A stretch of DNA of 64,000 bases, taken from NCBI RefSeq assembly GCF_016587435.1, contig NZ_BNJJ01000006.1, positions 62,001 to 126,000 on the forward strand, read 5' to 3'. Within the stretch, counting starts at the first letter, position 1, and every line of letters starts with the position of its first letter. The DNA is from Dictyobacter formicarum. GTDB taxonomy: Bacteria > Chloroflexota > Ktedonobacteria > Ktedonobacterales > Ktedonobacteraceae. The position numbers and the translations under genes are program-made. Of the stretch, positions 1,904 to 27,367 are shown in pieces. The notes under the pieces were generated by a model. That model worked only from the letters and a program-made list of their open reading frames with translations, was not told where the DNA came from and did not search any database.

Positions 1904-1967
1904 TGTGATTGCACTGAGAGATGCAGCTATCTCCTGTGACATGCTTGTGATGAATTGGTATTACAGT
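1904..1967 (+). promoter_or_regulatory. Stress-island promoter/operator, site A (upstream of usp at 2089)
   Basis: Half-sites TGTGA (1904), TGAGA (1915), TGTGA (1935) and TGTGA (1946) are followed 11 bases later by a -10-like TACAGT (1962-1967). Offsets between half-sites are 11, 20 and 11 bp. Six other sites in this window share the arrangement. A start point about 7 bases after the hexamer would give a leader of roughly 115 bases. Confidence 0.8.
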
Positions 1968-2088
1968 GTGAATAATGCAGATAGGGTAAAGAATTCTTCT
2001 GTTTTCTCCTGGCGATGAAGGCAGGACCCGTATCTCGTCTACGAAAAAAACGTTCACAATGTCATAAAGCTTGAGAAGGAGCTTCAAC

Positions 2089-3366
2089 ATGTTTACGCGC
2101 ATACTGGTTCCTCTTGATGGATCTCCAGCTACAGAGCACGCGCTTCCCATCGCGGCCCGGCTCGCCCGTACCGCTCAGGGATCATTAATACTCGTCCATG
2201 CCATCACGCTGGGTACCGATTTCAATGGAAAATCTACTCTGAAAAAGGATGCCTTACACGGCCTGATTGAAGCTGAAAAACAAAAAGCCCTCGACTATCT
2301 TACTAATATCGCCGCCATGCCACTGTTAAACGAGATTGATGTGGAGATTGAGATCTGCTGGGGCCAGGTCGCGCCGTCGCTGATTGAGCAGGTAAAGCAG
2401 CATAACTGCGACCTGATCCTCTTGAGTCGCAAACACCATACAGGACTGAAATATCTGCTGCCAGGAAGCGTGGCCGAGCGCGTAGCTATACATGCACCGG
2501 TGCCAGTTTTTCTGATACACGAACACGGGCCGCTGCCGGTCATTCCATACGTACCAGCAGGACAACCTATCTGCGTGCTGATGGGCATCGACGATCTCGC
2601 TCAGGCCAGTACTGTCGTAAAGAGTTCCTTATCCCTCGTAGCAGGACTGGCAGCCACAACTCAACCAATCATTCGCCTGGCACGAGTCATCTCACCATAC
2701 GCGGCAGAGCAACAGTCAGCTCCGCAGGGCAGCATGCTCGATCTTATGAACATCGTGAAAGAGCAGCAACTGAAACACGTGCACGAGTTTCAGGACATTG
2801 ATGAGGCATCGATGGAAGTCGTTGCCAGCGCCTGTATGAGCGAGTCAACGCTGGTTGAGACCGACTATGCACATGCGCTCCTTAAAGAGGCTGGCAGCTA
2901 CAACAGCAACGAGCACGAGCAGCATTTCCATCTGCTGGCCATCTCGTCGCGCTTTGGAAAGTATCAGCAAAGCTTACATCTGGAGAACCATATCGTGGAA
3001 CGGATCACCCACGAAACGCAGCTGCCCGTATTGGTTGTGCCACCAATAGCGGCGATGGAGATCCCCCTGCAATGGCGCAGGCTTCCCACCTTTAGGAATG
3101 AAACACGACACGTAGGTGCGCCCCTTGTGAGTGGAAGGCAAAAGCGCTCGCAAGGGGCGCACCTACGATTTGCTTTTTATGTGTTTTCTACGTTTAATCG
3201 GCACTCTGGGCAGCATCAGTCTTTGATTGGCCCACACCTGCACCGTAGAGGAAACAATTGGTCCAATGCCCATTGCCCAGGTCAGTACGGCCAGGAAAAC
3301 GTTCTTTACAGACCGGCATCGCATGCGGACAACGAGGATGGAAACGACATCCAGTTGGTGGCGTAA
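2089..3366 (+). CDS. Two-domain universal stress protein with a repeat-derived C-terminal extension
   Basis: The ATG at 2089 has AGAAGGAG eight bases upstream and opens with the family start MFTRILVPLDGS. Domain 1 (about residues 1-150) ends in HTGLKYLLPGSVAERV, which keeps the x9-GS part of the Usp nucleotide-binding motif but lacks the usual SHG. Domain 2 (about 160-325) has lost the motif altogether, so ATP binding there is doubtful. The normal end is expected near VLVVPPIA (residue about 326). The frame instead runs through a palindromic repeat (3111-3167) and on to residue 425, overlapping the convergent ABC ATPase gene by 173 bases. The extra 100 residues look like unselected sequence. 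Site A lies upstream. Confidence 0.85.
   Translation: MFTRILVPLDGSPATEHALPIAARLARTAQGSLILVHAITLGTDFNGKSTLKKDALHGLIEAEKQKALDYLTNIAAMPLLNEIDVEIEICWGQVAPSLIEQVKQHNCDLILLSRKHHTGLKYLLPGSVAERVAIHAPVPVFLIHEHGPLPVIPYVPAGQPICVLMGIDDLAQASTVVKSSLSLVAGLAATTQPIIRLARVISPYAAEQQSAPQGSMLDLMNIVKEQQLKHVHEFQDIDEASMEVVASACMSESTLVETDYAHALLKEAGSYNSNEHEQHFHLLAISSRFGKYQQSLHLENHIVERITHETQLPVLVVPPIAAMEIPLQWRRLPTFRNETRHVGAPLVSGRQKRSQGAHLRFAFYVFSTFNRHSGQHQSLIGPHLHRRGNNWSNAHCPGQYGQENVLYRPASHADNEDGNDIQLVA
3111..3167. repeat. Palindromic GTAGGTGCGCCCC repeat, copy R1
   Basis: Perfect 17-bp inverted arms (3111-3127 and 3151-3167) enclose 23 bases. The arms read CGTAGGTGCGCCCCTTG and its complement. The copy lies inside the 3' part of the usp reading frame and removes its normal end. 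Related copies lie at 16587-16730, 18826-18846, 25161-25309, 39687-39702 and, more distantly, 46545-46600. Confidence 0.85.
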
Positions 3367-4267
3367 TCAGACTCGGAATTTCACCCCGTGCAGTCAACTC
3401 CGTGCTCTGAGCGCCCGCATGGATACGATCGGGATCGGGAGCGGCCGAAAGCAATAGTTGTGTATACGGATGTTTGGGTTCTTGAATAATCTCATCACTG
3501 GGTCCGCCCTCGACTGTCTGCCCGGCATACATCACCAGCGTGTCCTCGGCAAAATAGCGCGCGCTAGCGATATCGTGCGTAATGAAAAGAAAGGCCAGGC
3601 CCTCCTCATCTTTGAGCCGTAACAAAAGATTGAGGATATCAAGGCGAATAGAAACATCCAGCATCGAAACCGGTTCATCCGCAAGCAGGACCTCTGGACG
3701 CACGGCAAGCGCACGAGCGATAGCCACACGCTGACGCTGGCCACCACTGAGTTGGTGAGGATATTTTTCGATAAACTGTTCAGCAGGACTGAGGCTGACG
3801 CGCCGTAGTAAGGCCAGCACCTGTTCGGTAATTTCACGCTCGGTGCGTGCATGATCAAAAATCTTCAACGGTCGAGCCAGGTGATAGCGAATATTATGGA
3901 CAGGATTGAGTGAGCTAAATGGATCCTGGAAGATCAACTGCACATGGCGGCGATATTTACGCAGGGCAGACGCGCTCTTCGACAGCTTGATTGGTTCACC
4001 TCGGAAACTAATGGCACCAGAGGTTGGATTATAAATGCGGGCAAGCATACGCGCAACCGTTGTTTTACCACTCCCACTTTCACCTACCAGAGCCGTCGCG
4101 CGTCCAGGTCGCAGAGCAACCGACGCATCTTCAACGGCATGAACAGCCAGCGAAGGGCCAAAGAACTTGCCCCGCACAGGAAACTCTTTGCGTAGATTGC
4201 TAGCCTCCAGCACAGGAGCGGGCAGTTCCAGGTTGGTCTGATCATCAGCATAGCGAGAAGTGCTCAT
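3194..4267 (-). CDS. Opp/Dpp-type ABC transporter ATPase, second ATPase subunit
   Basis: 357 residues. The P-loop reads GESGSGKT, the signature LSGGQRQR and the Walker B region VLLADEPVSMLD, followed by the switch histidine in FITHD. The C-terminal oligopeptide/dipeptide transporter extension is present with its cysteine-bearing motif GCRFHPRCPHAMPVC, a likely iron-sulfur or metal site. It forms the ATPase pair with the protein encoded at 4267-5403, whose stop overlaps this start as TAATG, so the two are translationally coupled. It is the last gene of a five-gene minus-strand operon. Its 3' end is overlapped by the convergent usp gene. The cargo is oligosaccharide or oligopeptide; see the LacI gene for the reason to prefer sugar. 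Confidence 0.92.
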   Translation of the reverse strand: MSTSRYADDQTNLELPAPVLEASNLRKEFPVRGKFFGPSLAVHAVEDASVALRPGRATALVGESGSGKTTVARMLARIYNPTSGAISFRGEPIKLSKSASALRKYRRHVQLIFQDPFSSLNPVHNIRYHLARPLKIFDHARTEREITEQVLALLRRVSLSPAEQFIEKYPHQLSGGQRQRVAIARALAVRPEVLLADEPVSMLDVSIRLDILNLLLRLKDEEGLAFLFITHDIASARYFAEDTLVMYAGQTVEGGPSDEIIQEPKHPYTQLLLSAAPDPDRIHAGAQSTELTARGEIPSLITPPTGCRFHPRCPHAMPVCKERFPGRTDLGNGHWTNCFLYGAGVGQSKTDAAQSAD

Positions 4268-10743: not shown

Positions 10744-10896
10744 GGGCTTCTGTCAACAAGATTGGTTTTTGAGAGTATTTCTTTTACTACCTGTAAGAGA
10801 CCGCCTCAGAATTACAAATACTTCTCAAAGCGTTGCCTGGCGACACAACAAGATCACAGACGCGGGCCTCTAGCGGGATGAAGCAGGCTGATGGCG

Positions 10897-11616
10897 CTAC
10901 GAAACTTTGGGGTGGGCCGCAAACTGATAGCCAACGCCAATTTTGGTATGGATGTAGGCTGGATGGGAGGGATCTGGCTCGACCTTTCGGCGCAGCCGAT
11001 TAATGCTAACCTGGAGCATATGGCTTTCCCCCATATATTCTGGCCCCCAGATATGCTCCAGTAAGAGATCCTGGGTTAATATACGGCCTGCATTCTGCAT
11101 CAGGTAGGCCAGGATACGATACTCGGTCGGGGTCAGGATCACCTCTTCGCCTCGCACCGTCACCAGGCGCTGCTCAAAATCGATATCGATATCACCAATA
11201 GTGAGCTTCGACCGGGCTGCCTGCATCTGCTCCAGCGCTACAAATTGCGAGCGCCGCAGCACGGCACGCACACGGGCGACAAGTTCCTCAATACTGAACG
11301 GCTTGGTCAAATAATCATCGGCCCCCAGATTTAAGCCCCTGACTTTATCGCTATCACGGCCACGCGCCGTGATAATGATGATAGGAAGCTGCGAAAACTC
11401 TCGTATTTTCTGGCAGGCCGTAAAACCATCCATATGCGGCATCATCACATCCAGCAACACCAGGTCCGGGGGATTCGCTTCGATCATTGCCAGCGCCTCT
11501 TCCCCATCGTGGGCATTCAGAACATGGAAGCCTTCCAGCTCCAGAGTGCGCGTCACCAGGCGCAAGAGCTGCGGATCGTCATCGGCCACAAGAATAGTAT
11601 ATTTCTTGATCGTCAT
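10897..11616 (-). CDS. OmpR/PhoB-family response regulator
   Basis: 239 residues. The receiver domain (about 6-120) has the acidic pocket DDD (12-14), the phosphorylation Asp56 in LLDVMMP, and the conserved Lys in DDYLTKPF. The C-terminal winged helix (about 140-235) has the OmpR-type pattern LTPTEYRILAYLMQNAGRILTQDLLLEHIWG and the closing INRLRRKVEPDPSHPAYIHTKIGVGYQF. It is divergent from the histidine kinase at 11783, with 166 bases between them. Members of this family bind direct repeats with an 11-bp step and activate by contact with sigma at the -35 region. That is the geometry of the seven repeated sites in this island, so this protein is the leading candidate for their regulator; the link is inferred. 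Confidence 0.95.
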   Translation of the reverse strand: MTIKKYTILVADDDPQLLRLVTRTLELEGFHVLNAHDGEEALAMIEANPPDLVLLDVMMPHMDGFTACQKIREFSQLPIIIITARGRDSDKVRGLNLGADDYLTKPFSIEELVARVRAVLRRSQFVALEQMQAARSKLTIGDIDIDFEQRLVTVRGEEVILTPTEYRILAYLMQNAGRILTQDLLLEHIWGPEYMGESHMLQVSINRLRRKVEPDPSHPAYIHTKIGVGYQFAAHPKVS

Positions 11617-11782: not shown

Positions 11783-14026
11783 GTGCATCCATACGAGACG
11801 CATACACCTCTCAGCGAACGCGAACGTTTTGCCGCTTTAAATCGAATCGGCGCAGCCTTGCTCAGTGAGCATAATGAGCAAAAATTGTTGCAGTTGATCG
11901 CGCAAACTGCCGCTGACGTAATTGGTGCTCATTTCTCTGCCTTCTCTTTGCGACCCACTGATGAACAAGGAGAACTACTAGGGCCTTCTGAAGGCCATCT
12001 TTTTCACCTGGCGGCCGTAGTGGGGGTAACCGAGGAGCAACAAGCATTATTCCAACGCTTGCCATTGGGCGGAGAAGGTCTGCTGGCGCCCATATTCCGT
12101 TATGGGGTCCCTGTGCGCGTCGGAGATGTGCTAAAACAATTAGCGGCAGGCTACGAATATACAGAGACACAAAAAAAAGCCGAAGCCCAACAATTAGCGT
12201 TGGCTTATGCTCACGGTTACCTATCATCTGAGGAGCTACGGGCTATCGGTATGCCGGAAGGTCATCCTCTGGTGCGTAGTTTTCTGGGAGTTCCGCTGTT
12301 AGATCATGCAGGAAATGTTCATGGAGGATTGTTACTGGGACACAGAGAACCGGACCGTTTTCAAGCCGAGGATGAAGAGTTACTGGTCGGCCTGGCCAAT
12401 CAGGCGGCCATTGCCATTGAGAATGCGCGCCTCTATCAGGCTATCCATACACGAGCTCAGGAACTGGATGCGATCTTTCAGAGCATTCAGGATGGGGTGA
12501 CACTGCTCGATCCACAACAGCGTATCGTGCGCGAAAATAAGCAGGCCTACCTGTTGCGCACCCGGCTAGAGCAATCTCCACAGGGACAACAATCGCTGGA
12601 GGAATTGCTGTATGCTCCCGCGCGCCACGCCCTGACCGGCTATGAAAAACAGGATATCTCCGTCACCATCATCAATGAGTGCGATGAAAAATTCGAGTAT
12701 ATCGTCAACGCATCCGCTTTATATCAGCAAGCACCCGCGACGCCGAATAATAACGCGGGCGCGACACCATCTATCAGTGGTGCCGTCATCGTCTGGCACG
12801 ATGTCACTGAGGTACGCGCACTTTTGCGAGAAAAGCACGATTACGCCGAAATCGAAGCGCGCCGCTCGTTATTGCAGCGAATTCTGGACGAATTGCCAAC
12901 CGGCGTTTACCTGGTACATGGCCACGATGCCCGCCTGGTCCTCGCCAACCAGACCGCCACCACCCTATGGGGCGCCACCTGGTTACAGGAACAGTCCATG
13001 CTAGATTTCTTGCAGCAGCATCACATCCAGATCTTTCGCAACGATGGGCGTATCCTGCCAGTGGAAGAGCTAGCCACTTTACGGGCGGTCCAACGCGGAG
13101 AAACTATCTATCAACGTCAGGAAATCATTCGCCATGCCGATGGATCTTCACAACCCGTACTCGTGAATGCGATTACATTGAACATCAAAACAGCTCCGCT
13201 CAGCCTGCCAATTGTCCAGCAAAATGAACATGATCCGGTCGCGATCGTGGTACATCAAGATGTCTCAGCCCTGAAAGAGGCTGAGAACCTGAAGGATGAC
13301 TTTATTAGCATTGCGGCCCACGAACTACGCAATCCGCTAGCCGCGCTCCAGGGCTTCATCGAGCTGTTCCAGGCCCAGTTGGCGCGGCAACAAAAACAGC
13401 TCCTGACGCAGGAACAGCAGGAGTCGCTGCAACATATCGATCAAGCCACCCAACGACTGGTAACGCTCACCAACGATCTATTGGATGTCACGCGCCTGCA
13501 AGCGGGACGCCTGGAATTAGTGCAAGAAGTGACAGATCTGGTCTCACTGGTTAAACGCGTCACCCAGCGCTATCAAATCATAGCGCCCCGCCACCAGCTT
13601 ATCGTCACCACACAGGTGCCATTTTTAATTGTCTCTATTGATGTCATGCGCACCGAACAGGTACTCACCAACCTGCTCAGTAACGCGATAAAATATAGTC
13701 CTTGTGGTGGGCAAATCCAGATCACGCTGGAAAAACAAAAAGCAAGCCACCAGGCGCTCTTAAAGATCAAAGATACGGGTATTGGCATCCCGGCTTACCA
13801 GCAAGCACAGATTTTTGGGCGCTTCACCCGCGCCGCGAACGCACAAGCTCATGGCATTTATGGTACGGGGCTGGGATTGTATCTCAGTCGAGAGCTGGTT
13901 GAGCGCCAGGGCGGCAACATCTGGTTTCAATCCCAGGAAGGGCAGGGCACCACCTTCTTCATTACTCTGCCATTGATCGCCTCGTCGATCGAGAACGATA
14001 TCCTTGAGGAAAATACCGGGATATAG
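11783..14026 (+). CDS. Sensor histidine kinase with GAF and PAS domains
   Basis: 747 residues from a GTG start. An N-terminal GAF domain (about 15-215) ends in the typical DEELLVGLANQAAIAIENARLYQ. Two PAS-like segments follow (about 225-355 and 365-500). The HisKA helix carries His513 in the H-box IAAHELRNPLAAL. The ATPase domain has the N-box NLLSNAIKYSP, the G1 box DTGIGIP and the G2 box GTGLGLYLSRELVERQGG. No membrane segment is visible, so it senses a cytoplasmic or diffusible signal; GAF domains can bind haem, nucleotides or flavin, but no ligand is deducible. It is divergent from the OmpR-type regulator, its probable partner. DosS/DosT kinases of mycobacteria also use GAF sensing but have a different output family. 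Confidence 0.93.
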   Translation: MHPYETHTPLSERERFAALNRIGAALLSEHNEQKLLQLIAQTAADVIGAHFSAFSLRPTDEQGELLGPSEGHLFHLAAVVGVTEEQQALFQRLPLGGEGLLAPIFRYGVPVRVGDVLKQLAAGYEYTETQKKAEAQQLALAYAHGYLSSEELRAIGMPEGHPLVRSFLGVPLLDHAGNVHGGLLLGHREPDRFQAEDEELLVGLANQAAIAIENARLYQAIHTRAQELDAIFQSIQDGVTLLDPQQRIVRENKQAYLLRTRLEQSPQGQQSLEELLYAPARHALTGYEKQDISVTIINECDEKFEYIVNASALYQQAPATPNNNAGATPSISGAVIVWHDVTEVRALLREKHDYAEIEARRSLLQRILDELPTGVYLVHGHDARLVLANQTATTLWGATWLQEQSMLDFLQQHHIQIFRNDGRILPVEELATLRAVQRGETIYQRQEIIRHADGSSQPVLVNAITLNIKTAPLSLPIVQQNEHDPVAIVVHQDVSALKEAENLKDDFISIAAHELRNPLAALQGFIELFQAQLARQQKQLLTQEQQESLQHIDQATQRLVTLTNDLLDVTRLQAGRLELVQEVTDLVSLVKRVTQRYQIIAPRHQLIVTTQVPFLIVSIDVMRTEQVLTNLLSNAIKYSPCGGQIQITLEKQKASHQALLKIKDTGIGIPAYQQAQIFGRFTRAANAQAHGIYGTGLGLYLSRELVERQGGNIWFQSQEGQGTTFFITLPLIASSIENDILEENTGI

Positions 14027-14406: not shown

Positions 14407-14542
14407 AAACATAGAAATTCCGAGACATTCTTGATAGGAACGACGATGCCGAGTGTGGTAGTTTCGTGCCACAACGAATAGCATACATGTGAATCCGGGG
14501 AGAACTTCAATGCACCTGCATGACAGCAGAGGAGCAAGTATT

Positions 14543-15526: not shown

Positions 15527-15583
15527 CTGCCTGCAGCGAGGTCGTTAAAGCGGACAAGATGGTTATGCAAAGGAGAATACGCC

Positions 15584-16570: not shown

Positions 16571-16586
16571 AAATTCATTCACCAAC

Positions 16587-16730
16587 TCGTAGGTGCGCCC
16601 CCCATGGGCGCTTTTACCTTACCTACCCGAAAAAGAAAGGTATGCACCGGGTGAAATCGCTCCCTCTCACCTCTTTTGGTACGTTTTTGAGCGAGAAGTG
16701 AGGAAGCTCCCGCAAGGGGCGCACCTACGA
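16587..16730. repeat. Palindromic GTAGGTGCGCCCC repeat, copy R2 (long form)
   Basis: The ends TCGTAGGTGCGCCCC (16587-16601) and its complement (16716-16730) enclose about 114 bases without an open frame. Flanking CCAAC/GGTTGG may extend the inverted ends. With terminal inverted repeats and no gene it resembles a miniature mobile element, although no target duplication is evident. It separates usp 15584 from the P-type ATPase gene. Confidence 0.75.
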
Positions 16731-16756
16731 TTTGGTTGGCACATAGAGGTGAAGTT

Positions 16757-18796
16757 GTGACCAACCACAAAGGAGAACGCACACAGGTAACAGCATCCGA
16801 CATAGCACAAAGCTCCATCTCATCATTAGAGCCACCACCGTCTGTAAAGAGCGAACAGGCATCCTGGTATGCACGGTGCTGGTCTCATGTAAAGCGCTAT
16901 CCAATTCCGGCAGTCGCCCTCTTCCTGTTGTTCGTTAGCCTGCTCTTCTGGTTAGCACGACGTAGCGATCTGGCCAACTGGACCCTGCTGGGCATTATTA
17001 TCTGGGGCGGCATCCCTTTGCTGTGGGAAACGATCAGTCGGCTCTGGCACAGAGAGTTCAGCATAGATGTGATCGCGGCCATCGCTATCATTGGTTCACT
17101 TTTACTACATGAATACCTGGCGGGCGCCATTATAGTTCTGATGCTATCGGGAGGTGAGGCGCTGGAGGCCTTTGCGCTACGGCGCGCCCGCAGCTCGCTT
17201 TCGGCACTGGCCGAACGGGCGCCACGTACCACCCATATCTGGCAGGATAACCAGTTGAAAGATGTCACAGTAGAGACGATCGAACCAGGCATGACAGTGG
17301 TTATTAAGCCGGGAGAACTGGTGCCGGTCGATGGCATCATCGTGCAGGGCACATCAAACGTCAGCCAGGCCGATATAACCGGCGAGCCCATGCCGGTCCG
17401 TAAACAACCAGGCATGGGTCTGCTGTCTGGCAGCATCAACCTGGACGGCATCCTGGAAGTACGGGCCAGCAAACCCAGTACGGAAAGTAAATATGCTCAG
17501 ATTGTCAGGCTGGTGTCTGAGGCACAGGAGCAAAAGGCGCCGATTCATCGCCTGGCCGACCGCTACAGCATTGTCTTTACACTGCTCACGCTCATACTCG
17601 CCAGTGCAGCCTGGATCACGTCTGGCAATCAGGTATACGCGCTGGCTGTCCTGGTGGTTGCCACACCCTGCCCCCTGATCCTGGCCACGCCGATCGCCAT
17701 TATGTCAGGTATCAACATCGCGGCGCGCAATGGCATTATCGTCAAGAGCGGCTCAGCCATTGAGCAACTGGGGGAAGTCAAGATGGCGGTATTCGATAAA
17801 ACCGGTACGCTAACACTGGGCATGCCAAAGGTCTCCACAATCCTTCTGGACCCCGACGATCAGCAGGGAAACCCGTATACGGAAGCAGAGATTCTGGCCT
17901 ATACGGCCTCGGTTGAACAACTCTCGACCCATATCCTGGCTACTGCCGTCGTTACCGCGAGCCAGGAACGGCATATTCCCCTGTACACAACCAGCAACTT
18001 TGAGGAAACTTTTGGCAAGGGAGTTTGCGCCACCGTCATCAGCAACGCGCCTGCGGGAGAAATACCACAAACAGATAGCAAACAGCAGATCTCGGTCGCC
18101 GTGGGCAATCGTACATTTATGCGCATGATGAATATTCCACTACCAACATATTTTCTAGAGGAGAGAGAGCGCAGACGGGCACTGGGCCAGATTTGCAGCT
18201 TCGTCGCGATCAATGGGCAGATCAAGGCGCTCATCGTGATGGAAGATGTGCCTCGTCCGGAGATCCACCAGCTCTGTCCCGCGCTCAAACACGAAGGCAT
18301 TGAACAGACCATCCTGCTGACTGGCGATAGCGAAACGGTGGCCCAACAGATCGGACAGCTGGCCAGCATAGATCGCGTCATCTCACAGTGCCTACCCGAA
18401 GACAAAGTACGTGTGGTGCAGGATTTAGAGAACAAAGGGCACAAAGCCTTGATGGTCGGTGATGGCATCAATGATGCTCCAGCCCTGGCAACGGCAACCG
18501 TAGGGATGGCACTGGGAACGCAGGGACTCACCGCGGCCGCCAGTGCCGCCGATACTGTCTTGCTCTCAACCAACATCCTGCGCGTAGATACCGCAGTTTT
18601 CCTGGGCCGTCGTGTCATGCGCATCGCCAGGCAAGGTATCTGGATCGGCATGGGCTTGAGTGGCCTGGCCATGATCTTCGCCGCATTGGGCTATATTCCA
18701 CCCGCCGCCGGAGCAATCCTGCAGGAAGGGATTGATGTACTCGTAATCTTCAACGCGCTGCGTGTCAACGCCATTCGTATGCGAAAAAACAATTAA
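16757..18796 (+). CDS. P1B-type metal-transporting ATPase with TPCP motif (P1B-5-like)
   Basis: 679 residues from the GTG at 16757 (AGAGGTGA upstream; an in-frame TTG at 16736 touches the repeat). About eight membrane helices are visible. The ion-site helix reads ATPCPLILATP (Cys305), so the CPC of Cu or Zn/Cd pumps is replaced by TPC(P), the signature of the P1B-5 group that includes the Ni/Fe exporter Nia. The phosphorylation site is DKTGTLT (Asp347), the actuator motif DITGEPMP and the hinge GDGINDAPAL. There is no N-terminal metal-binding domain and no C-terminal haemerythrin domain as in Nia. It probably exports a transition metal such as nickel or iron; specificity is inferred. Confidence 0.9.
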   Translation: MTNHKGERTQVTASDIAQSSISSLEPPPSVKSEQASWYARCWSHVKRYPIPAVALFLLFVSLLFWLARRSDLANWTLLGIIIWGGIPLLWETISRLWHREFSIDVIAAIAIIGSLLLHEYLAGAIIVLMLSGGEALEAFALRRARSSLSALAERAPRTTHIWQDNQLKDVTVETIEPGMTVVIKPGELVPVDGIIVQGTSNVSQADITGEPMPVRKQPGMGLLSGSINLDGILEVRASKPSTESKYAQIVRLVSEAQEQKAPIHRLADRYSIVFTLLTLILASAAWITSGNQVYALAVLVVATPCPLILATPIAIMSGINIAARNGIIVKSGSAIEQLGEVKMAVFDKTGTLTLGMPKVSTILLDPDDQQGNPYTEAEILAYTASVEQLSTHILATAVVTASQERHIPLYTTSNFEETFGKGVCATVISNAPAGEIPQTDSKQQISVAVGNRTFMRMMNIPLPTYFLEERERRRALGQICSFVAINGQIKALIVMEDVPRPEIHQLCPALKHEGIEQTILLTGDSETVAQQIGQLASIDRVISQCLPEDKVRVVQDLENKGHKALMVGDGINDAPALATATVGMALGTQGLTAAASAADTVLLSTNILRVDTAVFLGRRVMRIARQGIWIGMGLSGLAMIFAALGYIPPAAGAILQEGIDVLVIFNALRVNAIRMRKNN

Positions 18797-18869: not shown

Positions 18870-18933
18870 TGTGATGGTTTTGAGAGGTCAGCCAATCTAC
18901 AGTGACATGTTCGAGATATCAAAGTTTTACTGT
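18870..18933 (+). promoter_or_regulatory. Stress-island promoter/operator, site C (upstream of usp at 19004)
   Basis: TGTGA (18870), TGAGA (18881), AGTGA (18901) and CGAGA (18912) keep the 11/20/11 spacing and are followed after 11 bases by TACTGT (18928-18933). The downstream half-sites are weaker than in site B. It should drive usp 19004, the fusion protein gene at 20056 and usp 21909 as one transcript; the predicted leader is about 64 bases. Confidence 0.8.
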
Positions 18934-19003: not shown

Positions 19004-20011
19004 ATGTTTCAAAAAATCTTAGTGCCGTTGGACGGATCAGAACGTGCAAAGATGGCACTGCCCGTTGCGGCACGCATAGCCAGATCCACGGGAGCATCCC
19101 TGCTCCTGGTACACGTTGTCTATCCGCCCATTGAATATACTCGCTATCCACATGTACTGGCGACTCCCATGGAGCTCGATACCCAGTTTGCCGAAGCGGA
19201 GACTGAGCTGGCCCGTAGCAATTTACGCCAGATTGCTATGTCTGATCTCCTGGCTGGCATCGAGATCGAAATACAGACCATCATCTCAACTAATGTTGCT
19301 CAAACGATTCTTGAGCTGGGCACAAAGGCCCAGGTGGATCTGATCATCCTCTGTAGCCATGGCTATACAGGCCTGAAGCGCTGGGCCCTGGGTAGCGTGG
19401 CATATAAGCTGACACGTAGCAGTCCCATTCCGCTCCTGGTGCTGCATGAAAACCAGGAAAGTCGCACTCGCATCTATACAACACGGCCACAGCCATTGCA
19501 TGTGATGGTCGCGCTGGATGGCTCCTTGCTTTCTGAAGCTGCCCTGGAGCCAGCCATACAGCTGGGCGTTGCCCTGTCTGTACCCGAGTCAACCACACTC
19601 CACCTGGTTGAGGTACTCCCATTTCCAGCCAGACGTGGTCATATTACGCCAACCCATCACGCCATCGAAGAGGCGCAAAAACGCATCATAGCCGATACAC
19701 AGCTTTACCTGGAAGAGGTAAAAAAGAAGCTCATGAGCAGCAGCCTGGCCTACCATAATCTGCAGATCACAACCTCCGTGCTGATCCATGAGGATGTCGC
19801 AGGGACCCTGATGGAGGTAGCAAAAAACCCGGCCACGCAGGCCGCAAGCATACCCGATACGGATCACATCGACATGATTGCTATGACAACTCATGGGCGC
19901 AGTGGACTGGAACATTGGGCACTTGGCAGTATCACCGAGCGGGTCCTTGATACAACCAGCCAGCCACTACTGATCGTGCATGCCAATGTCGAACAGCCCG
20001 CACCAGGCTAA
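19004..20011 (+). CDS. Two-domain universal stress protein
   Basis: 335 residues; AGAAGGAGAAG lies just upstream of the ATG. Domain 1 has CSHGYTGLKRWALGSVAYKL and domain 2 TTHGRSGLEHWALGSITERV. Domain 2 contains a longer charged loop (about residues 215-245) than the copy at 14543. It heads a three-gene unit with the fusion protein at 20056 (44-base gap) and usp 21909 (38-base gap). In M. tuberculosis the homologous type of fusion protein, Rv2004c, is likewise next to a usp gene (Rv2005c). Confidence 0.93.
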   Translation: MFQKILVPLDGSERAKMALPVAARIARSTGASLLLVHVVYPPIEYTRYPHVLATPMELDTQFAEAETELARSNLRQIAMSDLLAGIEIEIQTIISTNVAQTILELGTKAQVDLIILCSHGYTGLKRWALGSVAYKLTRSSPIPLLVLHENQESRTRIYTTRPQPLHVMVALDGSLLSEAALEPAIQLGVALSVPESTTLHLVEVLPFPARRGHITPTHHAIEEAQKRIIADTQLYLEEVKKKLMSSSLAYHNLQITTSVLIHEDVAGTLMEVAKNPATQAASIPDTDHIDMIAMTTHGRSGLEHWALGSITERVLDTTSQPLLIVHANVEQPAPG

Positions 20012-20055
20012 ACGGAGATAGGTAGGTATACGTACAAAAATGGAAGGAAAATGTT

Positions 20056-21870
20056 ATGCCGATCCATCGTTCCACTAACAAGATTGCTGAGCAAGAGTCG
20101 GAGCATGCGTTTGCACATATGCTCCATGCGCTCCTCAAGCGGCAGGCCTTTCCTTTTGTTTATGAGACGGGAGAAGATCCATACCTGATTCAGACGCACG
20201 CTTCGGCGGTCATTATCACACCTGACTATGTGTATAAGCTGAAAAAACCACGTGATTTTGGCTTCTTTGACTACTCAACCATTGACCAGCGCCGCCACTT
20301 TTGCCAGCTAGAAGTACAACTGAATAGCGCGCTGGCACCCGGCGTCTACCTGGGTGTAGCCCCGGCCATTGAGAAGCCAAATGGGACGCTCTGCTTTGGA
20401 GACACGTATCCTCCCGCCAGCGAGCCCACCCCTGGCCATCTCCCCAATGCATCAGGAACGATTATTGACTACGCGGTTGTCATGCGTCGTCTGCCCGAAA
20501 GCGCCACGCTGCATGCGTTATTGGAGGCGGGCAAGGTCACACCCGAGCTGATGGGGGAGATAGCCCATGTGGTAGCACAATTTCATAGCCACACGCCAAC
20601 CAATGACTACATTTCGAAAGCTGGCAGTATCCAGGTAATTCGTGAGAACTGGGGCGAGAATTTCCGGCAGATGCGTCCATATTGCGGGCGCACCATTTCA
20701 CGCAAGACCTATACGGCCCTGCAGCATTATATCTATCAATGCTTAAAACATGACAAAGAACTGTTTCGACAGCGCTTCATGCATGATTATATCCGGGATT
20801 GTCACGGCGATCTGCGACTCCAACACATCTATGTGCTACCCGAGGAATACCAGGCCACGCTACCACGCATCATATTGCTGGACCGTATCGAGTTCAACGA
20901 GCGCATCCGCTATGGCGATGTAGCCAGTGAGGTCGCATTCCTGTACATGGAACTAGATTTTGCCTGGCGTCCCGACCTGGCACATATCTTCCTGACACGC
21001 TATATAGCGGAGACCGGAGATGCATCACTGATCAAGCTGCTCCCATTCTATGCCTGCTATCGGGCCTGCGTACGCGGCAAGGTCATCTCGTTCCTGCTGG
21101 ACGATTCAGAGGTTGGTCCAGAGCAGCGTACAAAAGCGCAACTGGAAGCCAGCGAGCTATTCAAGCAGGCGCTACGCTATACCAGGTGTTCATCCCAGCC
21201 ACACCTGATCATCGTTGGTGGCGTCATGGGAAGTGGTAAAAGCACTATCGCCCGGCAACTTCAGGATGAATACGCCTATGCGCTACTCTCAACCGATAGC
21301 ATCCGTAAACAGCTGACCCATCTGCCGCCAGACCAACCACAGGCGGAACAGTTTGGCGCCGGCATTTATGATCCTTCCTGGACCAGGCAGACATACGCGG
21401 CACTGAACGAGCGGGCGCAGGCCTATCTTCAGCAGGGCTACTCGGTGATTGTGGATGGTACCTACTCGCGTCGCGCCGATCGCCAGGAGATCGCGCAAGC
21501 AGCGGTTCAGCACGGAGCCAGCGTTATTTTCATTGAATGTATCTGTCCACGCGAGGTCACGTTACAACGCCTTGACCAGCGCTGGCGCAGCCGCATCGCT
21601 GGCGAGCCAGCCTTAGCAGGCGCGACCAACGCCTCCGATGGGCGCCCCGAGCTCTACGATACGCAGGTGGCACACTGGGAAGCGTTCGATTCCGGGCAGG
21701 AGCCCATGATCAGACATATTGCCTTATCTACCACCGGCTCCCAGCAAACCAACATGGAAGCACTACAGCACAGACTTCATCCCCTGCTGACAAATATGCC
21801 CGAGGGGAAAAACAGCACCTTAAAGGCGGAATATCTTAACAACGTATCACAGTCATCCTTGCATATATAA
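20056..21870 (+). CDS. APH-like kinase / P-loop ATPase fusion protein (Rv2004c-like)
   Basis: 604 residues in two parts. Residues 1 to about 370 resemble aminoglycoside-phosphotransferase-fold proteins: the catalytic loop is HGDLRLQHIY (from residue 250) and the metal-binding region is LLDRIEFNERIRYGDVASEVAFLYMELDF. Residues about 380-560 form a zeta/AAA-type P-loop kinase domain with GGVMGSGKST (388-397) and a later DGTYSRRADRQE segment. This architecture is that of Rv2004c, a DosR-regulon protein of unknown substrate. Small-molecule kinase activity is likely, but antibiotic resistance should not be assumed from the fold. It sits between two usp genes in one operon. Confidence 0.85.
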   Translation: MPIHRSTNKIAEQESEHAFAHMLHALLKRQAFPFVYETGEDPYLIQTHASAVIITPDYVYKLKKPRDFGFFDYSTIDQRRHFCQLEVQLNSALAPGVYLGVAPAIEKPNGTLCFGDTYPPASEPTPGHLPNASGTIIDYAVVMRRLPESATLHALLEAGKVTPELMGEIAHVVAQFHSHTPTNDYISKAGSIQVIRENWGENFRQMRPYCGRTISRKTYTALQHYIYQCLKHDKELFRQRFMHDYIRDCHGDLRLQHIYVLPEEYQATLPRIILLDRIEFNERIRYGDVASEVAFLYMELDFAWRPDLAHIFLTRYIAETGDASLIKLLPFYACYRACVRGKVISFLLDDSEVGPEQRTKAQLEASELFKQALRYTRCSSQPHLIIVGGVMGSGKSTIARQLQDEYAYALLSTDSIRKQLTHLPPDQPQAEQFGAGIYDPSWTRQTYAALNERAQAYLQQGYSVIVDGTYSRRADRQEIAQAAVQHGASVIFIECICPREVTLQRLDQRWRSRIAGEPALAGATNASDGRPELYDTQVAHWEAFDSGQEPMIRHIALSTTGSQQTNMEALQHRLHPLLTNMPEGKNSTLKAEYLNNVSQSSLHI

Positions 21871-21908
21871 GTCCTAAACATTCTTTGTTGGTAGGAGAGG
21901 AGAGAAAA

Positions 21909-22952
21909 ATGAATGCTCAAACCAGTATGCTCCACTTCAACAAAATTCTCGTCCCGCTGGATGGCTCACCGCTAGCGGAGGAAGCAATCGCACTGGCGGC
22001 ACAGATCGCACACGGCAGCAAAGCTGAGTTGCTGCTGCTGCGCGTTGTTCCTCCATCCAGTTGCGTTCCACTCTATCCAGTCACACCGATGGATCTCACA
22101 GAGCCCATGGAGGAAACCGCCTTTACAAACGCGCGTACCTACATGGAGGAGGTGATCCCGCGCGCGCATATCGATACGCTCAAAGTGCAAACAGATGTTT
22201 TGCTGGGAGGGGCGGCCAATACAATCGTCGATTATGCCCTGCAGCAAGGCGTGGGCCTGATCGTGATGCGCAGCCATGGAGAAACCGGCCTTACCCGCTG
22301 GATCATGGGCAGTACAGCGCAACAACTAGTGCGCAACAGTCCGGTTCCGGTACTCGTGATGAACAGACCACAGAATCAGCCGCTGCGCTTCCAGCACACG
22401 CCACGGGTCCTGATCGCCCTTGACGGCTCTCCCCTGGCAGAAGAAGCGATTGCCCCAGCCGCACTACTGAGCTCGGCCCTGGCACATCCTGGCAATGGTG
22501 CCATCCATCTGACACGGGTCGTTCAGCACCTGAAGCCGCATGGACGTCAAACGAAGGAACAGATAGTGCACATCAACAAAGAATATCGAGCGGAGGCCGA
22601 AGATTACCTTAAACGCATCAAACAACGCATAGATGCAGGATTCCTGATGCCGCTCAAGCTGGCGATTACGACTTCGGTGGTGACCTATACGGATATCGAG
22701 GATATTACCAGGCGTATCATCGAAGAAAGCTTATGTATTGGAGACGCGCCGGGATTTACAGGTTGCGACATCATCGCCATGAGCACGCATGGACGTCACG
22801 GTTTCCAGCATCTGCTGCTGGGTAGTTTTACGGAAGAAGTGTTTGATGCCGCCCAGAGGCCTCTCCTGGTCGTCCATGCCTCAAGAACAAAAGAGATTCG
22901 ACAAGCCGAGGACACAGCACAACGGCAAACAAGCGATGTGCCAATCATATAA
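21909..22952 (+). CDS. Two-domain universal stress protein
   Basis: 347 residues from the ATG at 21909, behind GGAGAGGAGAG. A short leader sequence of about ten residues precedes the usual FNKILVPLDGS. Motifs are RSHGETGLTRWIMGSTAQQL and STHGRHGFQHLLLGSFTEEV; the second is the least typical of the intact ones. It closes the three-gene unit that begins at 19004. A pair of mutually exclusive hairpins lies 50-110 bases after its stop. Confidence 0.92.
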   Translation: MNAQTSMLHFNKILVPLDGSPLAEEAIALAAQIAHGSKAELLLLRVVPPSSCVPLYPVTPMDLTEPMEETAFTNARTYMEEVIPRAHIDTLKVQTDVLLGGAANTIVDYALQQGVGLIVMRSHGETGLTRWIMGSTAQQLVRNSPVPVLVMNRPQNQPLRFQHTPRVLIALDGSPLAEEAIAPAALLSSALAHPGNGAIHLTRVVQHLKPHGRQTKEQIVHINKEYRAEAEDYLKRIKQRIDAGFLMPLKLAITTSVVTYTDIEDITRRIIEESLCIGDAPGFTGCDIIAMSTHGRHGFQHLLLGSFTEEVFDAAQRPLLVVHASRTKEIRQAEDTAQRQTSDVPII

Positions 22953-23001
22953 CAAACACAATGACTACCAACCAGCCTCAACGTATGGCGTCTCAACCGC
23001 C

Positions 23002-23061
23002 ATGCCAATCATTTCTTGTTTAGCGCACAGGAAATGATTGGCATAGCATACAAGAAATGAT
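23002..23061 (+). promoter_or_regulatory. Two mutually exclusive hairpins between usp 21909 and usp 23141
   Basis: The left arm at 23002-23015 pairs perfectly with 23031-23044 (14 bp). Bases 23008-23018 of the same arm can instead pair with 23051-23061 (11 bp, ATCATTTCTTG against its complement). One segment with two partners is the layout of an attenuator, though neither hairpin has a T run. No stress-site motif lies in this spacer, so usp 23141 may depend on read-through or on this element. Confidence 0.45.
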
Positions 23062-23140
23062 AGAACAAGGCATATACTGCTGCTCTATCGTGGTGGATAA
23101 ACCAGGGAACCCACTGCAAAAATGTGAAAAGAGAAAGGCG

Positions 23141-24097
23141 ATGTTCAAGCACATTCTTGTTCCTCTGGATGGGTCAGCGCGGGCAGAGCAAGCCTTGCCA
23201 GTGGCCGCTCGTATTGCACGTGCAAATCACAGCACGCTGGTATTGATTGAATCTATCGATCCTATCGATGAGATGGGATTGTCAACCCTTCCTCGCGAAC
23301 ATTTGCTCCTGGATATAGAGAAATTGTATCTGCATAACATTGCACGCAGTCCAGAATTAGCAGGCATAGAGATTATCACGCTGGCCCGTATCGGTATACC
23401 TGCTGAACAAATTCTGCTGGCAATTAATACCCACCCAATAGATCTGATTGTAATATGTAGTCATGGCCGGACCGGCTTGAAACGCTGGGCGATGGGTAGC
23501 GTCGCCCAGAAAATCTCGCGCTACAGTCGGGCGCCGGTACTCGTGCTGCAAGAAGATGACCAGCTGCGACAACAGCTGCGTGCGCCTCATCCTTCAACTG
23601 TACGCATCATGGTCGCCCTGGACGGCTCTGAGCTGGCCGAAACGGCCATCGTGCCGGCAGCACATCTCAGCATGGCGCTCTCCGCGCCAGTTACGGGAGC
23701 GATCCAATTAACCTATGTCATACACCTGCCATCATCATTTGAATATGGACAAGAAGATAGTGTCTCCAGAGCACTCAGGAAAGAAACACCTCCAGCGCAG
23801 GCCTATTTACAAACAGTCGAGCGACAGGTGAGGGAGGGCGTGTTCGGCCCGCTCCACCTGGACATCAGCACCGTCCTGGCGCACGATCTAGATGTGGCCG
23901 GTAAGTTACTCAAAATAGCTGAATGCAGTGAAGAGCCAGCCAGCCACGATCGCTGTCAGCTGATCGCCTTAACAACGCATGGGCACAGAGGTCTACAACG
24001 CTGGATCACAGGTAGTGTCACCGAACGCATCCTATCCAGGACGGAAATATCTTTACTGGTTGTCAGGCCACCACAACATAAGCAGCCGAGCATATAA
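23141..24097 (+). CDS. Two-domain universal stress protein
   Basis: 318 residues from the ATG at 23141 (AGAAAGG upstream), beginning MFKHILVPLDGSARAEQALPVAARIARANHS. Motifs are CSHGRTGLKRWAMGSVAQKI and TTHGHRGLQRWITGSVTERI. The opening is nearly identical to those at 15584 and 28160, which suggests recent duplication within the island. Unlike most units here it has no TGTGA/TGAGA promoter; the upstream spacer contains the alternative hairpins. Confidence 0.93.
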   Translation: MFKHILVPLDGSARAEQALPVAARIARANHSTLVLIESIDPIDEMGLSTLPREHLLLDIEKLYLHNIARSPELAGIEIITLARIGIPAEQILLAINTHPIDLIVICSHGRTGLKRWAMGSVAQKISRYSRAPVLVLQEDDQLRQQLRAPHPSTVRIMVALDGSELAETAIVPAAHLSMALSAPVTGAIQLTYVIHLPSSFEYGQEDSVSRALRKETPPAQAYLQTVERQVREGVFGPLHLDISTVLAHDLDVAGKLLKIAECSEEPASHDRCQLIALTTHGHRGLQRWITGSVTERILSRTEISLLVVRPPQHKQPSI

Positions 24098-24183: not shown

Positions 24184-24247
24184 TGTGATGGTTTTGAGAC
24201 ATGCTCGCACATCACGAGATATCAGTGAGAGATATGCGGGCTATGTT
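24184..24247 (+). promoter_or_regulatory. Stress-island promoter/operator, site D (upstream of the 77-residue gene)
   Basis: TGTGA (24184), TGAGA (24195), CGAGA (24215) and TGAGA (24226), then 11 bases and TATGTT (24242-24247). The first 16 bases are identical to site C except for no change in TGTGATGGTTTTGAGA. It should drive the 77-residue protein and the YbaK-like gene; the predicted leader is about 76 bases. Confidence 0.82.
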
Positions 24248-24563: not shown

Positions 24564-24580
24564 TGTACCCTCATCAAAAA

Positions 24581-24620: not shown

Positions 24621-24684
24621 TCAATAACGCCGCACAGGCGTGAGTAGTTGTGCCATCAAAAACAGCTCCCGAGGAGGTTTAGCA

Positions 24685-25164
24685 ATGCAGTGCAAAGAAA
24701 AAATGGAAACGTATCTCCACGAAAATCAGGTTCCATTTCAGGAGCAGCGGCACGCGCGTACGTTTAGCGCCCTGACAATAGCGGAGTGCGAACACATATC
24801 TAGCAAGAAAACAGCCAAAACAGTCATCATACAGATTGATGGAAAGATGATGTGCTTTGTCTTACCAGCTGCATACTACGTTGATCTGGATAAAGTACGC
24901 GCCATCATGGGCACTAAAGATGTACGGCTGGCCCACGAAGATGAGTTTGAGCTATCCTTTCCCGACTGTGAGTTAGGCACCATGCCTCCCTTTGGCAATC
25001 TCTATGGCATACCGGTCTATGTAGACACAAGCCTGACGGCCGAAGATTCCATGACGTTCCCAGTTGGCACCTATACAGATACCATGAGCATCCAGTATGC
25101 CGATTTTGATCGTCTGGTACATCCACACGTCGCCATATTCGCCCGGTCTCACGTAGATATGTAG
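24685..25164 (+). CDS. YbaK/ProX-type aminoacyl-tRNA deacylase-like protein
   Basis: 159 residues; GAGGAGG lies nine bases before the ATG at 24685. The YbaK fold is recognised from HARTFSALTIAECEHISSKKTAKTVIIQIDGKMMCFVLPAAYYVDLDKV and GTMPPFGNLYGIPVYVDTSL, the latter matching the family's G-x-x-P-P-F-G substrate-pocket motif. Such domains hydrolyse mischarged tRNA, mainly Cys-tRNA(Pro) or Ala-tRNA(Pro). The TAG stop codon is part of the GTAGGT end of a palindromic repeat, so the natural C-terminus may have been altered slightly. It shares site D with the preceding gene. Confidence 0.8.
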   Translation: MQCKEKMETYLHENQVPFQEQRHARTFSALTIAECEHISSKKTAKTVIIQIDGKMMCFVLPAAYYVDLDKVRAIMGTKDVRLAHEDEFELSFPDCELGTMPPFGNLYGIPVYVDTSLTAEDSMTFPVGTYTDTMSIQYADFDRLVHPHVAIFARSHVDM

Positions 25165-25309
25165 GTGCGCCTTTGCGGGCGCTTGCTCGCTTCTCACTCG
25201 AAACCGCTCCCCAATTGTTTTTCGGGAGCGGTTTGATTCGATGCATAACGTTATTATCGTTTGTTTTTCGTGCGGGAAGAGCAAAATTGCCCGCAAGGGG
25301 CGAACCTAC
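25161..25309. repeat. Palindromic GTAGGTGCGCC repeat, copy R4 (long form)
   Basis: GTAGGTGCGCCTTTGCGGGCG at the left end and CGCAAGGGGCGAACCTAC at the right end enclose about 110 bases. An internal 11-bp hairpin (AAACCGCTCCC at 25201 against 25224-25234) could act as a two-way terminator. Both convergent neighbours end in TAG codons formed by the repeat ends (25162-25164 and the complement of 25306-25308). Confidence 0.75.
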
Positions 25310-26442
25310 GGGGCACTTGCCTGGTCCAGGCCCAGACTGCGCCTGATCTCCACAAATCGCATAATGTTCTCTCGGCTGATGGATCCTAACAGATGGCCTT
25401 CCGACACTACCGGTAGCTGGTTCAGGTTCCGACCCACCATCAGTGTCAGCACATCGTTGAGATTTTGTGTCGCGTTAACCGTGTGCAGACGAGTCAATGG
25501 CACCATCACAAAGCCGACCGGCGTTTGCGCCCATTGTTCACGTGGAACATGGCGGATATCGCTGAGCGCAATCAAACCAGCTAGCAGGTCTCCTTGCAGC
25601 ACAAAAGCGCTGCGCCAACCATAAGGCAACAAAAAGTCATCCACCAGTTTTTGCAAGGAAATGTTGGCAGGCACAGTAGCAGGATTATGATTCATGACAT
25701 CATTCACGTGAACACCTTTGAACATACCTTCCAGCATGCTCCGCGCATTGGCCGCGGTCGCCCCGCTCAGCAAGAACCAGCCAATAAAACCAATCCATAA
25801 ACCGTCCAGAACGAAACCACGGAAGAAAATCCAGAGACCCATAAAGATAAAGAAGTACGCAATAAATTGCCCTACGCCGGTAGCAACACGCGTGGCGGAT
25901 CGTACATTGCCACGTATCTTCCAGATAATCGAGTGCAACACCCGACCGCCATCCAGCGGAAAACCCGGAATAAGATTAAAGACGCCCAGTAAAAAATTGG
26001 CAATTGCCAGATACTCAAAGGTAGCGCTCAGGGGAGAACCGTTGTGACCAATAGCCAGCACCAGCAACCAGGCCAGGCCACTCAACCCCAGGCTCGTCAG
26101 AGGCCCTACCAGCGCCATCTGAAACTCGATACCTGGTGCCGGCGGCTCCTGTTCAATGTTAGAAACACCACCGAAGATAAACAGAGTAATGCTTTTCACC
26201 TGCAAGCCACGTGCACGCGCCACCAGGGCATGTGCCAGTTCGTGCAAGAAAACCGAGAGAAAAAGCAACAACGTTGCCAGTACACTGACACTCCAATAGG
26301 CCGTAACAGACCAGCCAGGATAGCGCACAGCAAACCATCCTGTCGCCAGAGACCAGCTCAGAAGTACCGCGATAATCAGCCAGCTTACATGAAAAGCAAT
26401 GTCGATGCCAGCAATTTTTCCAATACGCAAAGAACCTGGCAT
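25306..26442 (-). CDS. Site-2-type intramembrane metalloprotease (M50) with C-terminal CBS pair (Rip3-like)
   Basis: 378 residues. About six membrane helices carry the zinc motif HELAH (His67, Glu68, His71) and the distal ligand region NLIPGFPLDGGRV. Two CBS domains (about 247-368) form the C-terminus, a regulatory module for adenosine nucleotides. Its role is probably regulated cleavage of membrane-bound substrates such as anti-sigma factors. The architecture is that of Rv2625c (Rip3) in the DosR regulon. It is transcribed from the minus-strand site E; the leader places the ribosome-binding site inside a hairpin (26447-26480). Its TAG stop lies in repeat R4. Confidence 0.92.
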   Translation of the reverse strand: MPGSLRIGKIAGIDIAFHVSWLIIAVLLSWSLATGWFAVRYPGWSVTAYWSVSVLATLLLFLSVFLHELAHALVARARGLQVKSITLFIFGGVSNIEQEPPAPGIEFQMALVGPLTSLGLSGLAWLLVLAIGHNGSPLSATFEYLAIANFLLGVFNLIPGFPLDGGRVLHSIIWKIRGNVRSATRVATGVGQFIAYFFIFMGLWIFFRGFVLDGLWIGFIGWFLLSGATAANARSMLEGMFKGVHVNDVMNHNPATVPANISLQKLVDDFLLPYGWRSAFVLQGDLLAGLIALSDIRHVPREQWAQTPVGFVMVPLTRLHTVNATQNLNDVLTLMVGRNLNQLPVVSEGHLLGSISRENIMRFVEIRRSLGLDQASAP

Positions 26443-26446
26443 AATA

Positions 26447-26552: not shown

Positions 26553-26616
26553 AAAATACCTCTTGTCTCTCTCATTTTTTTCTCAAATAGCCAATCACCC
26601 TCTCAGAGAGATCACA
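26553..26616 (-). promoter_or_regulatory. Stress-island promoter/operator, site E (minus strand, for the M50 protease)
   Basis: Read on the minus strand: TGTGA (26616-26612), TGAGA (26605-26601), TGAGA (26585-26581), TGAGA (26574-26570), then 11 bases and TATTTT (26558-26553). The spacing is exactly that of site B, on the opposite strand. The predicted leader is about 104 bases and contains the hairpin over the ribosome site. Confidence 0.85.
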
Positions 26617-26703: not shown

Positions 26704-26768
26704 TGTGATGTATTTGAGATAAACACAGGCCGCCTGGTGATACATTTGTGCCGACATAAGACTATATG
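26704..26768 (+). promoter_or_regulatory. Stress-island promoter/operator, site F (upstream of TraR/DksA-like gene)
   Basis: TGTGA (26704) and TGAGA (26715) are followed by a second pair shifted by one base, GGTGA (26736) and TGTGC (26747), then 11 bases and TATATG (26763-26768). It is the weakest of the seven. Sites E and F are divergent, 88 bases apart, within a 449-base gap that holds nothing else recognisable. Confidence 0.7.
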
Positions 26769-26891
26769 TAAGGAATAGCAACGCATCCCACTGTTTCAAT
26801 GCATATCTTTGTGTTGCGCTGAAACAGTCATTCACGTCTCAATATCAGCCCGAGACAACGTCCATATCGAAGTGGATGAGGAGGATAAAAT

Positions 26892-27257
26892 ATGCTGTCA
26901 AGCGATATAAAAGCCAGACATGCATTCCTGGAAAATAAGCTGCAGGATTTGCAAAAACGGATCGAAGAATTGCGCGCCAAAGCACATATCGAATTTGCAG
27001 AAGAAGATATTGAAGAAGCAGCAGCCCGTGTTGCGGATACAGAGCTTGACGAAGCTATGCTCGATGAAGATTTGAAATTGTTGCAAAATATTAAAAGCGC
27101 GCTCAAGCGCATCGACGAAGGCACATATGGGCTCTGCCGAGTCTGTGGACAACCTATTCCGGCCAGGCGTCTGGAAGTGCTACCCTGGGCAGAACTGTGC
27201 ATAAAAGACCAACAAGAAAGCGAAAAGTTACAGTATAATCAGGTTGCTCTTAATTGA
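26892..27257 (+). CDS. TraR/DksA-type zinc-finger protein with an altered fourth ligand
   Basis: 121 residues; GAGGAGGAT precedes the ATG. An N-terminal coiled coil (about 8-85) has acidic patches (FAEEDIEEAAARVADTELDEAMLDED) where DksA has its catalytic tip. The C-terminal finger is CRVC-x17-CIKD, so the usual fourth Cys is Asp. A C4 finger with one Asp can still bind zinc or may be metal-independent. Proteins of this family enter the RNA polymerase secondary channel and reshape transcription during stress. Its own stress promoter (site F) suggests a second layer of control over the same response. Confidence 0.85.
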   Translation: MLSSDIKARHAFLENKLQDLQKRIEELRAKAHIEFAEEDIEEAAARVADTELDEAMLDEDLKLLQNIKSALKRIDEGTYGLCRVCGQPIPARRLEVLPWAELCIKDQQESEKLQYNQVALN

Positions 27258-27303
27258 TACGCGCTCAGATCGAGAAAACAGGACAAGCGGATGTGCTTAC
27301 TTT

Positions 27304-27367
27304 TGTGATCTATCTGTGACCCCGATGCACTCCTTGTGACGCGAATGAAATATTCCGGTACTACATT
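27304..27367 (+). promoter_or_regulatory. Stress-island promoter/operator, site G (upstream of hsp20)
   Basis: TGTGA (27304), TGTGA (27315), TGTGA (27335) and TGAAA (27346), then 11 bases and TACATT (27362-27367). The predicted leader is about 170 bases. No CIRCE-type inverted repeat is present, so Hsp20 here seems tied to this regulon rather than to HrcA. Confidence 0.8.

Follow-up and report, generated by a model that had tools for sequence, protein, structure and literature searches.

The stretch of Dictyobacter formicarum DNA analysed here (the window, 64,000 nucleotides) contains an island of stress genes in which a promoter-like element, hereafter the module, occurs ten times. Downstream of the modules lie genes for Usp proteins, Hsp20, a heavy-metal P-type ATPase, an M50-CBS protease, a DksA/TraR zinc-finger protein and a YbaK-like aminoacyl-tRNA editing domain. 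Within the island, and divergent from each other, are the genes of a response regulator of the OmpR/PhoB family (P0001) and of a sensor kinase (P0002). A sequence-only reading of the window had described seven of the modules, A to G, as a 64-bp promoter/operator element repeated in front of stress genes. All seven are found at the positions and on the strands it gave, and three more, on the minus strand from 1874, 14240 and 10858 (A-, B- and L- in Table 1), had escaped it.

Each module spans 64–65 bp and consists of two pairs of direct repeats followed by a -10-like box. The consensus is TGTGAT-N5-TG[TA]GA-N15/16-TG[TA]GA-N6-TG[TA]GA, with the box, TANNNT, at constant spacing behind it. The half-sites stand at 0, 11, 31 and 42 in six of the modules A to G and at 0, 11, 32 and 43 in F, in agreement with the offsets of 11, 20 and 11 bp, shifted by one in F, that had been read earlier; the first pair as then worded, TGTGAT-N5-TGAGA, holds for all except G, whose second half-site is TGTGA. 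When the ten window modules are aligned, a TANNNT-like hexamer lies 3' of the fourth half-site, and without gaps it is exact at a constant place in eight of them, the exceptions being F (TATATG) and L- (TCTCTT). The 64 bp of the sequence-only reading therefore end at the predicted -10 box, an element that it had not named, while its view of the module as promoter-like and aimed at stress genes stands. A logo of 130 matrix matches from fetched loci of relatives displays the same four half-sites followed by N10-cTATnnT, and in these modules the fourth position within the half-site is G in 96% of the first and 98% of the second half-sites.

Table 1. Modules in the window, with the genes of the candidate regulator, its predicted partner kinase and the predicted targets.
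Feature	Position	Strand	Remarks
Module A	1904..1967	+	upstream of Usp gene 2071-3366; predicted -10 TACAGT 1962-1967
Module B	14343..14406	+	upstream of Usp gene 14489-15526; predicted -10 TATGGT 14401-14406
Module C	18870..18933	+	upstream of Usp gene 19004-20011; predicted -10 TACTGT 18928-18933
Module D	24184..24247	+	upstream of small uncharacterised protein (stop 24563) and YbaK-like gene 24640-25164; predicted -10 TATGTT 24242-24247
Module E	26553..26616	-	upstream of M50-CBS protease gene 25306-26442 (-); predicted -10 TATTTT 26553-26558
Module F	26704..26768	+	spacer longer by one base; upstream of DksA/TraR-like gene 26892-27257; -10-like TATATG 26763-26768
Module G	27304..27367	+	upstream of Hsp20 gene 27544-28005; predicted -10 TACATT 27362-27367
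Module A- (putative orphan)	1810..1874	-	exact first pair, offset 32
Module B- (putative orphan)	14176..14240	-	exact first pair, offset 32
Module L-	10795..10858	-	one mismatch, offset 31; directly 3' of the response regulator gene; now faces LacI-type gene 9439-10611
P0001, OmpR/PhoB-family response regulator	10897..11616	-	predicted binder of the modules
P0002, GAF-PAS-HisKA-HATPase sensor kinase	11783..14026	+	predicted partner of P0001
Usp gene	2071..3366	+	predicted target of A
Two Usp genes, heavy-metal P-type ATPase gene	14489..18796	+	predicted unit of B
Usp gene, AAA_33 P-loop kinase-like gene, two further Usp genes	19004..24097	+	predicted unit of C
YbaK-like aminoacyl-tRNA editing domain gene	24640..25164	+	predicted target of D
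M50-CBS protease gene	25306..26442	-	predicted target of E
DksA/TraR zinc-finger protein gene	26892..27257	+	predicted target of F
Hsp20, Usp and F420-dependent quinone reductase-like genes	27544..29826	+	predicted unit of G

The recurrence of the module is far above chance. The first pair is matched exactly nine times in the window, against 0.13 expected, and none of 100 dinucleotide shuffles reached nine. A matrix built from modules A to G and applied at a threshold of 14 gave the three modules not seen earlier scores of 15.4 to 23.6; it found nothing in the reversed window and five matches in total in 40 Markov-simulated windows. Its other matches in the window, one at +26671 (15.7) and several two bases beside true sites, are not claimed as modules, and neither is a weak match at +11938 inside the kinase gene (13.5). 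A one-mismatch first-pair match at 1935 is the second pair of module A and not a separate site.

The island is syntenic, with its modules kept, in Dictyobacter kobayashii (class Ktedonobacteria), the nearest named relative found, and module positions are conserved between species. The genome of D. kobayashii contains 27 exact matches to the first pair versus 4 to the reversed pattern; summed over 29 genomes of the family, the counts are 381 and 78, and the matches exceed the control in 28 of the 29. Related genomes share descent and are not independent samples, and some assemblies are fragmented. The first pair alone, without any matrix, had served to select the 27 D. kobayashii sites; ten of them had the second pair complete at +31 or +32, and none had it complete at any other offset from 18 to 59. 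All ten double-pair sites, of which the island contains six and the rest of the genome four, carry TANNNT at one identical offset.

At E 1, a profile made from nothing but the sequences of the ten window modules matched all 29 family genomes, with as many as 28 matches in one genome; that all 29 match says little alone, as chance would yield about one match in each. At E 0.1, 41 of 47 genomes of the class matched, with 232 hits in total. A sample of 201 genomes of the phylum contained 27 that matched, namely 22 class members already seen and five from outside the class (G060, G133, G170, G175 and G210). These five, with one match per genome at E 0.0036 to 0.097, do not exceed chance at E 0.1 and were set aside; because only these five outside genomes match, and by such single hits, we treat the module as confined to Ktedonobacteria.

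Placement was assessed in 120 modules outside the window (score at least 18), at loci chosen by module hits and not by gene positions. Only one of them lies inside an open reading frame (ORF) of at least 150 residues, versus 74% of random positions. A module was counted as lying on the start side of an ORF when the end of its -10-like box fell between 70 bases inside and 400 bases before a called start on the same strand; this applies to 104 of the 120, versus 13% of random positions, and still to 61 of the 120 when the strand was flipped in place, many of these being divergent regions. The 150-residue minimum was adopted because the greedy gene caller placed 45 of the 130 modules within ORFs, all but one of which were 60–136 residues long, and because at F it preferred an antisense ORF over the DksA gene. 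The genome-scale scan and position enrichment proposed in the sequence-only reading are thus positive, as run in relatives of the window's species. Divergent module pairs are common: 28 have starts separated by less than 300 bp, and the window contains three of these.

Operators of the OmpR/PhoB family have half-sites in direct repeat at a distance of about 11 bp, as the modules do, and P0001, which comprises a Response_reg and a Trans_reg_C domain, is a strong candidate and, on its distribution, the likely regulator of the modules. Its orthologue group contains 52 loci in 37 of the 47 class genomes at 60–93% identity, followed by a gap to 53% and below. We compared these loci with 61 paralogues retrieved at E 1e-65, using as strong modules the 149 strongest among those listed (E < 0.01). 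A strong module is present within 5 kb of 23 of the 52 orthologues versus none of the 61 paralogues (Fisher test, 6e-10), and within 20 kb the numbers are 26/52 and 0/61. All but two of the 149 strong modules (147) are in genomes with a P0001 orthologue, and the 37 genomes that have one contain more modules than the 10 that do not (p 1e-4). The segment GESHMLQV[SN]xNRLRRK, which from knowledge of the family we take to be the recognition helix, hardly varies among 36 orthologue rows taken from the fetched loci, with the window's row and two of D. kobayashii among them.

Relatives of the kinase P0002 occur at E 1e-80 in 25 of the 29 family genomes, several of them, by reading, within module clusters. 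The sole PDB sequence matches to its N-terminal 222 residues at E 0.01 are five GAF domains of the DosS/DosT type. The best match of the predicted GAF fold is likewise DosS, with other GAF domains scoring nearly as well, and the model is moderate (pLDDT 73.8). In DosS, the heme ligand is given as His149 (PMC4082495), and a histidine is aligned with it in all 11 aligned kinases, the window's included; the residue aligned with the distal Tyr171 of DosS, as read by eye, is a leucine in P0002. Because the equivalent of His149 is kept but that of Tyr171 is Leu, and because the GAF model is moderate, heme binding and oxygen sensing by P0002 would be a lead rather than a result. Other kinases lie beside regulator genes elsewhere: in genome G008, a short HisKA-HATPase kinase of 290 residues is encoded directly before the regulator gene (L089:15174-16046), and at locus L092 a kinase-like gene of 288 residues adjoins it.

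We propose, with a probability of about 0.8, that the module is a complete activator-dependent promoter read by P0001, a prediction made from sequence. A dimer of the regulator would bind each pair of direct repeats, resulting in tandem dimers, and the bound protein would recruit RNA polymerase to the predicted -10 box and activate transcription. We infer that the promoter-proximal pair occupies the region in which a -35 hexamer would be expected, the arrangement seen in activator-dependent class II promoters; because of this position, the regulator may stand in for -35 recognition. The adjacent kinase would phosphorylate the regulator in response to oxygen limitation or redox state, a signal to which the targets in relatives and the DosS/DosT-like GAF domain point weakly. 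Protein bound over the -35 region could also block polymerase, and the same regulator might then act mainly as a repressor that keeps polymerase away until the signal releases it. The logo of 130 modules, however, contains no separate -35-like motif to go with the -10 box, which fits an activator-dependent promoter, and we regard predominant repression as unlikely.

The predicted targets were surveyed in relatives as the first genes behind modules with a score of at least 20 and a called start within 450 bases, repeats removed. The 102 genes obtained include 25 for Usp and 7 for DoxX proteins, 3 each for cytochrome bd subunit I, the phosphoketolase N-terminal domain, P-type ATPase, M50 protease and DksA/TraR, and 2 for pyruvate:ferredoxin oxidoreductase; the counts are not independent, since the census includes orthologous islands of several genomes. 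The predicted regulon is wider in relatives than the set of stress proteins described from the window, with pyruvate:ferredoxin oxidoreductase, phosphoketolase and cytochrome bd oxidase joining it. Several of these target families belong to low-oxygen or fermentative metabolism. A broader reading, which we hold tentatively and at slightly worse than even odds, is that Ktedonobacteria independently evolved a DosR-like low-oxygen dormancy regulon, in which a kinase with a DosS-like GAF domain and HisKA, an OmpR-family activator and a class-wide double direct-repeat promoter would control Usp, Hsp20, M50-CBS, P-type ATPase, pyruvate:ferredoxin oxidoreductase, phosphoketolase and cytochrome bd genes. 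The interruption of the island kinase in the two nearest relatives lowered our estimate.

Several observations, besides the leucine in P0002, weigh against these proposals. The island kinase, intact in the window, is broken in D. kobayashii into two ORFs of 565 and 193 residues (L068:1844-4097) and reduced to a C-terminal ORF of 407 residues in G007 (L088:372-1595), through either decay or sequencing error, and in these two genomes the regulator may have an active partner other than the adjacent kinase. In the window, the interval that separates the regulator gene from the kinase gene contains no module, and 17 of the 27 first-pair matches in D. kobayashii are without a full second pair. Among the 52 orthologues, 29 have no strong module within 5 kb, although part of these may be missed, as many assemblies are fragmented and the module set holds the best matches, to E of about 0.01. 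The co-localisation counts are not fully independent, owing to shared descent. Finally, genome G044 has an orthologue yet no module match at E 0.1, and G032 and G034 have no orthologue and three module matches each (best E about 0.006).

The orthologues distant from modules and the two genomes with modules alone would also suit another DNA-binding protein, for example a different OmpR-family paralogue, that reads the modules with P0001 as a bystander, and the first regulator search returned 43 to 201 candidate stretches per genome. Against this stand the absence of strong modules within 20 kb of any paralogue retrieved and the concentration of such modules in orthologue-bearing genomes, and we doubt that P0001 is a bystander.

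The letters TGTGA are those of the CRP half-site and could point to a regulator of the CRP/FNR family, whose sites, however, are inverted repeats of the form TGTGA...TCACA. Around 118 modules, which had been picked with a direct-repeat matrix, inverted TCWCA reached a maximum of 4 at any offset and displayed no concentration, whereas direct TGWGA peaked at 0, 11, 31/32 and 42/43; binding by such a regulator is very improbable.

DosR boxes are palindromes, and DosS contains HisKA_3. Among the DosR targets, we take Rv2625c to be an M50-CBS protease and Rv2623 and Rv2005c to be Usp proteins. DosR is described as a NarL-family regulator with hspX and the cation-transport ATPase gene ctpF among its targets (PMC4082495). 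The island resembles the mycobacterial DosS/DosT-DosR system in that the kinase GAF domain is nearest in the PDB to DosS/DosT and in that its targets, judged by gene position only, include Usp, small heat-shock protein and P-type ATPase genes. Together with the M50-CBS protease, this partial overlap might suggest an orthodox DosR system, with a NarL-family regulator and DosR's own operator. We give this hardly any weight: the regulator beside the kinase has a Trans_reg_C and not a NarL-type domain, and the operator is a direct repeat. The island also differs from the mycobacterial system in that the residue aligned with Tyr171 is Leu and in that P0002 has Pfam HisKA. The likeness to DosR is in function, and the system described here would be a class-wide regulon of the OmpR family, new in its code and DosR-like in content. 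That the modules are non-regulatory copies of a mobile repeat, as the abundance of similar copies in each genome and their frequent divergent pairing might suggest, has next to no probability, as conservation is limited to the half-sites and the -10 box, with most spacer positions of the logo low in information, and as the modules keep their positions between species, avoid genes and point at starts.

The operator form had been called new in the sequence-only reading, and this holds in part. In PhoB/PhoP-type class II promoters, an OmpR-family dimer on direct repeats replaces the -35 element, much as proposed here for P0001; the module differs from these in its half-site letters and in having a second, upstream pair at fixed phase, and phosphate genes are absent among the 25 most frequent target families listed. 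The half-site geometry itself is known from WalR/VicR (YycF) of Bacillota, also an OmpR-family regulator, whose sites are direct repeats 11 bp apart, TGTWAH-N5-TGTWAH (PMC4168254). The module has G in place of W at the fourth half-site position and so departs from the WalR consensus. Also unlike WalR/VicR, it has two pairs 31–32 bp apart and a fixed -10-like box, and its predicted targets are stress, fermentation and respiration genes. YycF/WalR is the top NCBIfam model for P0001 among the matches listed, but with 232.1 bits P0001 misses the family cut-off of 340. The consensus, the double-pair layout and the regulon are new to our literature searches, whose listings contained no described regulon of such a kind in Ktedonobacteria.

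The analysis provides a precise predicted promoter code for a bacterial class and names a probable regulator, and the predicted regulon takes in unannotated genes. If the low-oxygen reading is true, two distant phyla would have placed similar dormancy-type genes under a similar sensor domain, each by way of its own regulator family and operator.

The three modules added here have equivalents in D. kobayashii and G007. Those of A- precede a gene of 1228 or 1220 residues (pyruvate:ferredoxin oxidoreductase in G007), those of B- coding sequence of a P-type ATPase (in G007 one of the Mg type by NCBIfam) and those of L- a Usp coding sequence. A translated search of the window found no pyruvate:ferredoxin oxidoreductase, and ATPase and Usp only as the copies already described. 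The flank of A- (1780-1900) holds 34 bases that match the interior of the G007 oxidoreductase gene (88% identity), and the flanks of L- (10612-10896) join two stretches that bracket the Usp gene in G007. With the genes not found in the window and with the flanks of A- and L- matching the G007 loci in this way, the comparison suggests that promoter-sparing deletions removed the genes and left A-, B- and L- as orphan promoters.

Further along the window, at 34427-41988, genes of the phenylacetate degradation type (PaaA/C-, PaaB- and PaaD-like, thiolase, enoyl-CoA hydratase and aldehyde dehydrogenase) adjoin a TetR-type regulator. This stretch is without a module; it holds only one-mismatch first-pair matches, at 38015 and 39998, in which no module was seen by eye. 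The small uncharacterised protein behind module D (24330-24563) has relatives of 78 and 86 residues at 92% and 87% identity, and a 72-residue piece of it had no Pfam match. Among the Usp genes, 20056-21870 encodes a protein of 604 residues that carries an AAA_33 P-loop domain at its C-terminal end; zeta-toxin-like and small-molecule kinases are related to this domain.

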